A stretch of 64,000 nucleotides of DNA from Halanaeroarchaeum sulfurireducens (GTDB taxonomy: Archaea; Halobacteriota; Halobacteria; Halobacteriales; Halobacteriaceae), in contig NZ_CP008874.1 of assembly GCF_001011115.1 (NCBI RefSeq), positions 124,001 to 188,000 of the forward strand. Direction: 5' to 3'. A program made the translations under genes and the position numbers. How positions within the stretch are numbered: position 1 is the first letter of the stretch; each line of letters starts with the position of its first letter. This document shows positions 27,634 through 60,941 of this stretch, in pieces. Below the pieces are notes generated by a model. It had not been told where the DNA came from. It did no database searches and saw nothing but the letters and a program-made list of their open reading frames with translations.

Positions 27634-28063
27634 ATCCTCCGGTAGCGGCCCACGACTCAAATCCCTTACGAGAATTGGGCTCTCTGCTGGGACGACCCGA
27701 TTTCACCCGGTAGCGGGCTCGAACGGTCAATAGCGCGGCTGGTGGGGGTGGGAGGGGCCGCGGGTGACAACCGTCGGGCGCCGCCGTGCTGGTAAGGGCG
27801 AAGAGGGGGATTGCGAGCAGGTGGTCGGGATGGCGAACGCAAGATATCGCCGGGTCGCCGGAGCGGGTGACCACGCAACCGCCGCGTTCGCTCCGGGCCG
27901 AGCGTCACAGCATGGCCGCGGTTGGTTCGGTGTTGGTATTTGAACTATCGGGGGGGGAAGGCCGGGTCTTGGCGGATCGTTCGCCAGGGCCGCGAGGAAC
28001 GCGGCTCATAGCAAATGATCCTGCGTAAGCGTTTTTGCCCCACGTCGGTTACGTTTCTGCACC
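27634..28063. other. Intergenic region carrying copy A of a dispersed element
   Basis: This 430-nt gap between divergent genes has no convincing reading frame. It contains the 97-bp element at 27812-27908, flanked by GC-rich single-copy sequence. Near 28010-28050, CGTTTTTGCC lies about 30 nt before the PDCD5-like start and probably serves as its promoter. Confidence 0.7.
27812..27908 (-). repeat. 97-bp dispersed element, copy A
   Basis: Read on the minus strand, this segment matches 59628-59724 (plus strand) at 88 of 97 positions with no gap. Both copies can fold into nested arms, GTGGTC...GACCAC enclosing GGCGA...TCGCC. It ends in CTGCTCGCA, the point at which copy B runs into a tandem array. 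Confidence 0.9.
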
Positions 28064-48001: not shown

Positions 48002-48169
48002 TCCGGCCGCGGACGACTCTTTATCTACGAGGACCGGCCCAGCGCGGTGCGTGCTCTGACCGTTACCGCCGGGCCGGATCCGCGAGTGTGCGACCCACCG
48101 CCCGGCGTCGCCGTGCCGTCCGAGCCACGGCCCCGTGTGTCGCCTGTTCGCACTCCGGTACCGGTCCGC

Positions 48170-59518: not shown

Positions 59519-59945
59519 GCGTTCGTTTACTTGTTTTCAGTCTTTTCCGACCCGCAGAGCCGGGCGTCGGTCACCGCTGTCCGTCCACACCTTCTTGTAC
59601 CGAGACGGGACCAGCGGTGTCCGTGACGTGACGATCGACCCGGAGCGAACCAGGCGGTTGCGTGGTCACCCGCTCCGGCGGCCCGGCGATATCCCGCGTT
59701 CGCCACCCCGACCACCTGCTCGCCAAACTCTCAACTGACGGCTATCTACTCGCCAAACTCTCAACTGACGGCTATCTACTCGCCAAACCCTCAACCGACA
59801 ACCATCTACTCGCCAAACCCTCAACCGACAACCATCTACTCGCCAAACCCTCAACCGACAACCATCTACTCGCCAAACCCCCCAACTGATGGCCACCTGT
59901 TCGGTAAAACCCCTCAGCTGACGCCCATCTGCTCGCCAAAACCCC
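59519..59945. other. Repeat-filled gap between rps19e and the radical SAM gene
   Basis: The gap holds a T-rich stretch after rps19e (GTTCGTTTACTTGTTTTCAG, a likely terminator), the dispersed element copy B and the 30-bp tandem array. No gene is accepted; the open frames through the array only translate the repeat. Confidence 0.8.
59628..59724 (+). repeat. 97-bp dispersed element, copy B
   Basis: It matches the reverse complement of 27812-27908 at 88 of 97 positions, gap-free. The arms GTGGTC/GACCAC are unchanged. In the inner arm GGCGA has become GGCGG, which would still pair with TCGCC by a G-U pair. Its 3' end (CTGCTCGCC) passes straight into the 30-bp tandem array. Confidence 0.9.
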
Positions 59946-59957
59946 TCAGCTGAGCGG
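59719..59957 (+). repeat. 30-bp tandem array, about eight units
   Basis: Units of 30 bp (CTCGCCAAAC then TCTCAACTGACGGCTATCTA, with CCTCAACCGACAACCATCTA in later copies) run from 59719. Units 1-2 are identical, units 3-5 are identical to each other, and units 6-8 drift. The last, partial unit enters the 3' end of the convergent radical SAM gene (stop at 59946). Confidence 0.92.
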
Positions 59958-60941
59958 CGTCCGCTCGACGACCTGCTCGTCGTAGGTGGGATATCGCTCC
60001 ACGATATCGCCCGAGGCGACGTCTCCCTCCTCGACCATCTCCTCGAGTAACCACCAGGCCACCTCCACGTGGTCGTCGACCGGCTCGTAGAACTCAGCCG
60101 GGACGCCCAGTTCCGCCAGTCGATCCTGGCTCGCTTCGGTGACTCCGTAGACGAGGAGCCCGTCGTCGCTCACCTCGTCGAAGGGCCGCTTTACGGTTTC
60201 GGCCATCCGCCGGAGCCGGTTGCGGTGCTGGGCGGCGTCCTTGAAGACGCTCGTGCAGAAGTAGACCTTCGGGTGTTTGCCCATCTCCTCCAGGATCTCT
60301 CCCCTGGAGCCGTCGACGGCGCTCATGTGTCCGTCCTCGAGTTCGTACCCCTCGGCCTGCATCCGCCGGTAGTTGCCGTGGCTCATCTCGAACTCGTTGA
60401 CGTTGACGAAGTCGGCAGCTCCCTCCTCGACGAACTCGACGAACTCGGGTTCGGCCTCGATGCCGGGGATCTCGAAGGCGGGGTCGAGGCCCTCCTCCCG
60501 CGCCACGTAGAGGATGTTCTCCCACTCGGTGCCGTGGAGGTCTCCCCACAGCTCGAGCGGTGGGTGAAACCGGATCTCGTCGAGGCCGGCCGCGGCGAGC
60601 GCCCGCATGTTCTCGCGCCCGCCCGTGATGCCGGTATAGAGGTGTACGTGGAAGTCCTCGCCGAACTCGTCTTTGAGCAGGGTGATGTAGTGGGTGGTCC
60701 GGTCCATCGCCTCCTGTGGCTCGCCGCCGGTGATCGACGCACCGAGGGCGTCCATCGTTCGCGCCTCTGCGAGGACGTCCTCGTCGCTCTCGACCGGCCG
60801 CTCGTTGGCGTAGACGCGGTCGACGTTCTTGCGGTTCTCCCCCAGGGGACAGTAAAAGCAATCGCGTTCGTCGCAGTAGCCGTAGACGAACAGCACCATC
60901 TTGCCGCCCTTCGCGCACTGCTCGCACCCCTGGGAGATCAT
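59946..60941 (-). CDS. Atypical radical SAM protein (COG2108-like)
   Basis: The 331-residue protein has an N-terminal cysteine pair (QGCEQCAKGGKMVLFVYG). A cluster motif CDERDCFYC follows, spaced C-x4-C-x2-C rather than the usual C-x3-C-x2-C. GASITGGEPQEAMDRT is the SAM-binding GGEP motif. The barrel pattern (FHVHLYTGITGG, EIRFHPP, AFEIPGIEAEPE) follows. I recall it as the archaeal group annotated as related to pyruvate formate-lyase activating enzyme; its substrate is unknown. TTTTGC at 60967-60974 is 29 nt before the ATG. Its last bases are part of the tandem array. Confidence 0.87.
   Translation of the reverse strand: MISQGCEQCAKGGKMVLFVYGYCDERDCFYCPLGENRKNVDRVYANERPVESDEDVLAEARTMDALGASITGGEPQEAMDRTTHYITLLKDEFGEDFHVHLYTGITGGRENMRALAAAGLDEIRFHPPLELWGDLHGTEWENILYVAREEGLDPAFEIPGIEAEPEFVEFVEEGAADFVNVNEFEMSHGNYRRMQAEGYELEDGHMSAVDGSRGEILEEMGKHPKVYFCTSVFKDAAQHRNRLRRMAETVKRPFDEVSDDGLLVYGVTEASQDRLAELGVPAEFYEPVDDHVEVAWWLLEEMVEEGDVASGDIVERYPTYDEQVVERTPLS

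Follow-up and report, generated by a model that had tools for sequence, protein, structure and literature searches.

The window analysed here is a 64,000-nucleotide stretch of DNA (C1:124001-188000) from a 2.2 Mb haloarchaeal genome that also has a second replicon of 124 kb. A preliminary description reported a 97-bp element in two intergenic places and considered a structured small RNA, a MITE-like element or a protein-binding locus. The two copies are real and both are intergenic: positions 27812-27908 on the plus strand (copy A) and 59628-59724 on the minus strand (copy B) are identical at 88 of 97 bases, ungapped and on opposite strands (92% over 96 bases without gaps in the copy alignment, E 6e-34). 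The element is not confined to two copies, as a covariance model yielded 21 in the genome, with a third inside the window at about 48014-48152 on the plus strand. Nor is the 97-mer the natural unit, since it spans the predicted RNA of copy A minus its first 5 nt and excludes the promoter. A whole-genome DNA search detected additional, incomplete copies both here and in the other genome of the genus; on one side, the core that they share reaches beyond the 97-mer. The gene of copy A lies on the minus strand, from a TATA box at 27944 down to about 27812. The features of the three window copies are as follows.

27937..27944, minus strand: copy A TATA box TTCAAATA, starting 31 nt before the start codon; the box is conserved at a set distance in every copy
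27923..27930, minus strand: copy A promoter motif CCGAACCA (family consensus CGGGACCA, from column frequencies of 127 copies)
27812..27913, minus strand: copy A predicted RNA, start codon to tail end, 102 nt (model R2 match C1:151812-151950, minus strand)
27905..27913, minus strand: copy A start-stop reading frame ATG CTG TGA, at the predicted RNA 5' end
27889..27896, minus strand: copy A helix P1, 5' strand CCGGAGCG, from covariation
27869..27874, minus strand: copy A helix P2, 5' strand GTGGTC, within the P1 loop, from covariation and the P2 partner test
27858..27865, minus strand: copy A helix P1, 3' strand CGCTCCGG, from covariation
27821..27826, minus strand: copy A helix P2, 3' strand GACCAC, from covariation and the P2 partner test
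27812..27820, minus strand: copy A conserved tail CTGCTCGCA (family consensus CTGTTCGCC)
48020 onward, plus strand: third copy TATA box TTTATCTA
48051..48152, plus strand: third copy predicted RNA, from model matches, sequence and helices
48051-48059, plus strand: third copy start-stop reading frame GTG CTC TGA
48067-48074 with 48100-48107, plus strand: third copy helix P1
48090-48094 with 48139-48143, plus strand: third copy helix P2
48144-48152, plus strand: third copy tail CTGTTCGCA
59592..59599, plus strand: copy B TATA-like box TTCTTGTA
59623..59724, plus strand: copy B predicted RNA (model R2 match C1:183586-183704, plus strand)
59623..59631, plus strand: copy B start-stop reading frame GTG ACG TGA
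59640-59647 with 59671-59678, plus strand: copy B helix P1
59662-59667 with 59710-59715, plus strand: copy B helix P2
59716-59724, plus strand: copy B tail

On the sense strand (minus in copy A, plus in copy B), these elements follow a constant order. First comes a BRE/TATA element (CGAANGTTCAAATAC or TTTATA), and then the CGGGACCA motif, a start codon, one further codon and a stop ([A/G]TG-NNN-stop), a spacer of 6-8 nt and the 5' strand of helix P1. The P1 loop consists of GCGGGAGYG and then the 5' strand of P2, after which come the 3' strand of P1, a spacer whose length ranges from a few to about 100 nt, the 3' strand of P2 and the tail CTGTTCGCC, where conservation ends. Across the family, the distance from start codon to tail is mostly 75-140 nt. 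The TATA box begins 30-31 nt upstream of the start codon with fixed spacing, a distance that matches leaderless starts in haloarchaea. Palindromic symmetry about the promoter motif was considered and does not exceed chance (mean 2.02 versus 1.76±0.16). In the window, a 30-bp tandem array of about 6-8 copies (59711-59958) begins within the tail of copy B, and its unit CTACTCGCC resembles the RNA tail CTGCTCGCC.

Several leaderless protein genes share a similar TATA-CCGGRCCANCC-ATG promoter. They encode T2SSE ATPases, a Pilin_N protein, DUF7283, DUF7382, a PLD-like protein and NucS-like proteins, and they lie in this genome (L350, L354, L357, L360, L363, L238 and L242) and elsewhere (L343 in G003, L344 in G079 and L197 in G057); at the T2SSE gene, other genera retain part of the motif. 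The protein genes and the RNA genes possibly form a shared regulon, with the 10 non-RNA matches standing near the control count of 8.

The extent of the family was assessed with two covariance models. Model R1, built from 11 copies, gave about 20 copies in this genome and matches in 233 of 392 genomes of Halobacteriales. Model R2, built from 73 diverse sequences, gave 21 copies in this genome at E <= 3e-6, with the next match only at E 0.003; all 21 are on the main chromosome, three of them within the window. At E <= 1e-6, R2 detected the family in 224 of the 392 genomes and 54 of 95 genera, and found no copies in some Halobacteriales genera. Weak model matches that correspond to protein genes with a similar promoter (L084/L242, L197 and L238-L244) were excluded. 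In a sample of the phylum (295 genomes), the positives among the matches listed by the covariance model all came from Halobacteriales, and a scan of 84,980 species genomes for a specific pattern returned 20 matches, in haloarchaea only, with genera including Halobacterium, Haloglomus, Halosimplex, Natronomonas, Halomarina, Halobaculum, Halolamina, Halegenticoccus and Halobellus. Copy number varies: Halolamina pelagica has 20 matches, Halegenticoccus soli has 26, and genus g52 has 2-3. BLAST of the consensus against plasmids and phages gave no convincing match, and a search of viral contigs found no family copies. The repeat is almost certainly a member of a dispersed small RNA gene family of Halobacteriales.

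The conserved structure of this family is a pseudoknot, on the minus strand for copy A, and not the nested pairing arms to which the preliminary description drew attention. Those arms carry no weight, because neither strand stands out when folded as a single sequence (z -0.99 to +0.83). In an alignment of 73 sequences (A3), which favours P2 because sequences were admitted only if P2 was found, the 16 pairs of the two interleaved helices are paired in 92.5% of cells, compared to 70.5% with partners shuffled and at most 46% with partners slid. Changes on both sides are present in 15 of the 16 pairs of this alignment, and the covariation score, with kinship ignored, is 0.562 versus 0.171±0.011. 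Under a fixed rule that involved no selection for P2, 107 of 123 copies had the P2 partner immediately before CTG, compared to 13% with partners swapped between copies. As P2 joins the P1 loop to sequence downstream of P1, the fold is an H-type pseudoknot. One copy in Halolamina pelagica (L103, at about 7032) has an extra stem-loop between the GCGGGAG loop and the tail. Two single-stranded segments that flank P2, GCGGGAGYG and CUGUUCGCC, are among the most conserved positions of the family, and pairing does not explain them. Judged by its compensatory changes, the family is a structured noncoding RNA gene with a predicted transcript. Covariation together with the P2 partner test thus strongly supports the structured small RNA among the options originally listed, and a purely protein-binding DNA locus is unsupported because compensatory changes maintain two helices.

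The second conserved feature is the short reading frame at the predicted RNA start. In an automatic count that ignored kinship, ATG or GTG followed by one codon and a stop is present in 192 of 209 distinct copies, and three further copies are one base off, so that about 93% of the 209 have a start-stop frame, with a slight bias in its favour among copies found through R2, because that model includes the start-stop columns. The start is GTG in 151 frames versus ATG in 41, and the stop is TGA in 163, TAA in 20 and TAG in 9. A G as the third base of the stop occurs almost exclusively together with an A as the second (Fisher 1e-7, kinship ignored). The single copy with TGG has TGA next in frame (L162), and other length variants gain whole codons (L098, L100). 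At least five copies retain the stop but carry ATC, ATA, GTC or GTT as the start, and start and stop are both missing in a few copies (L072, L083, L086). The spacer from stop to P1 is 6-8 nt in 107 of 116 copies. This pattern of stops fits codon selection better than a fixed RNA motif, and the frame is quite probably under selection as codons.

Comparison with a sister species clarifies how copies A and B came to resemble each other. The orthologue of copy A lies between the same TRAM and PF01984 genes, and that of copy B follows the same S19e gene. In the promoter, A and B are 59% identical to each other but 81% and 84% identical to their own orthologues; over the 3' part, the two copies are 89% identical to each other but only 59% and 39% identical to their orthologues. 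As the promoters are orthologue-like and the 3' parts are like each other, the 97-base match is, on these identities, a gene-conversion tract between two long-established paralogues.

The gene downstream of the RNA is convergent in 90 of 127 loci and co-directional in 37, including copy A, according to simple codon-usage gene calls that are fallible in single cases. The tail often lies 0-30 nt from the stop codon of the convergent gene; for the third window copy, a convergent RNase HII ends 18 nt away. A cis-regulatory leader or riboswitch was rejected, a co-directional gene being downstream in only the 37 loci. Downstream neighbours in this genome include TRAM, TsaD, a GCD14-like tRNA methyltransferase, a TruB-family enzyme, eRF1, an Elp3-looking radical SAM protein, a UPF0004 (MiaB-like) protein, a MetRS-looking class I tRNA ligase and an FtsY-looking SRP54-type GTPase. 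About 8 of the 21 downstream genes look related to translation or RNA modification, a post hoc observation with no genome-wide baseline. Neighbour genes differ between genera, and recurrent neighbours were rejected as a clue to function; for these reasons nothing was built on the apparent enrichment.

Neither Rfam nor the literature searched seems to contain the family. With Rfam 15, the window gave only a tRNA at the gathering score, and six family loci gave nothing at E <= 1. Literature searches found no description of the family, with most subscription papers outside their scope and an earlier description therefore possible. The nearest lead is a group of Haloferax volcanii intergenic RNAs that measure 72-97 nt and are in part ribosome-associated; among them, rancRNA_s194 (97 nt) and Hts4 (72 nt) are both found with ribosomes or polysomes (PMC6104027). 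The likeness is that of intergenic haloarchaeal RNAs of 70-100 nt; unlike the present family, and compared by description only, s194 and Hts4 are presented as single genes in the text consulted, which mentions no family, pseudoknot or start-stop frame (PMC6104027). Omega RNAs or sotRNAs of IS200/IS605 tnpB in Halobacteria (RF02656, RF02657; PMC12558985) are likewise multicopy, structured and haloarchaeal, but they overlap tnpB, whereas the family RNAs are intergenic, have their own promoter-like sequence and match no Rfam model. An IS200/IS605 omega RNA was rejected, as the tnpB family is absent among the downstream neighbours of 20 copies in this genome. Box C/D- and H/ACA-type RNAs were set aside on two grounds: the position of the stop shows codon-like variation, and there is no Rfam match.

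Two further systems resemble parts of the RNA. Pseudoknots of the readthrough or frameshift type (retroviral gag-pol type) lie 5-9 nt past the decoding site, and the pseudoknot here starts 7±1 nt after the stop; unlike them, the family has a two-codon reading frame with no conserved frame onward. A readthrough signal was set aside because no conserved frame follows the stop, and the spacer after P1 differs among copies in both length and sequence. By analogy, the family pseudoknot may work at the ribosome as the readthrough or frameshift type does, though it is not a member of that type. Bacterial minigenes, or start-stop ORFs, consist of AUG-NNN-stop, as in phage lambda bar. The family RNA shares the two-codon reading frame, but here the frame stands at the 5' end of a predicted leaderless, structured, multicopy archaeal RNA, and no homology is claimed.

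The best overall explanation, to which we assign a probability of roughly 0.5, is a leaderless ribosome-loading pseudoknot RNA produced from a multicopy gene family. Transcription would begin at or beside the purine of the RTG, so that the RNA would be leaderless, and the ribosome, as with other leaderless RNAs, would assemble right at its 5' end. It would decode two codons, giving a dipeptide, and reach the stop, at which point the start of the pseudoknot, 7±1 nt further on, would lie near the mRNA entry site at the leading edge of the terminating ribosome and could therefore hold the ribosome or report the speed of termination or recycling. The RNA ends would be shielded by ribosome and pseudoknot, and the many copies with one promoter type would act in trans, titrating or sensing ribosomes or translation factors. 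The excess of GTG over ATG starts (151 to 41) argues against strong initiation as the aim. That the RNA engages ribosomes at all is suggested by the start-stop frame and the spacing of the pseudoknot, and we put it forward tentatively. The more specific proposal, a new kind of regulatory RNA in which a standalone leaderless dipeptide start-stop ORF precedes a pseudoknot and some 20 paralogues capture, count or gate ribosomes in trans, is more speculative still.

The chief competitor is a pseudoknotted RNA that binds a putative protein, as a sponge, scaffold or RNP core, with the start-stop frame keeping loaded ribosomes off the structure. Such an RNA would account for the conservation of GCGGGAGYG and CUGUUCGCC that pairing leaves unexplained, and the joint loss of start and stop in L072, L083 and L086 is as expected if the stop matters only with a start. 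Translation could be avoided more simply by dropping the RTG, yet the RTG is retained, and we consider protein binding of this kind rather unlikely. A cis-acting antisense or 3'-end element directed at the convergent gene near the tail, which the prevalence of convergent neighbours and the short distances to their stop codons would suggest, is improbable: the neighbours change between genera, the 37 co-directional loci include copy A itself, and the position may simply spare promoters from disturbance.

Explanations that deny the repeat a function as a gene fare worse. Transposition of a MITE or other mobile repeat could be read from the roughly 20 dispersed copies per genome amid gene content that differs between genera. 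It is already largely refuted and very improbable, as A and B occupy the same sites beside the same genes in the sister species, the aligned copies have no visible terminal repeats or target duplications, viral contigs contain none, all 21 copies are chromosomal, and helices and reading frame are kept under selection. A functionless chance or one-off duplication, the reading that the preliminary description would have been left with had no further copies existed anywhere, draws nothing in its favour beyond the initial two-copy view and is refuted by the many copies that the whole-genome and other haloarchaeal searches returned (21 in the genome, 224 of 392 genomes of the order) and by the strong covariation.

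A ribosome-loading pseudoknot RNA would belong to a strongly covarying family present in over half of the sampled haloarchaeal genera, with up to 20 or more copies per genome, and its covariance model annotates otherwise blank intergenic DNA. As haloarchaea are leading models of leaderless translation, an RNA that places a start, a stop and a pseudoknot in direct succession offers a direct route to the study of initiation, termination and recycling in these organisms.
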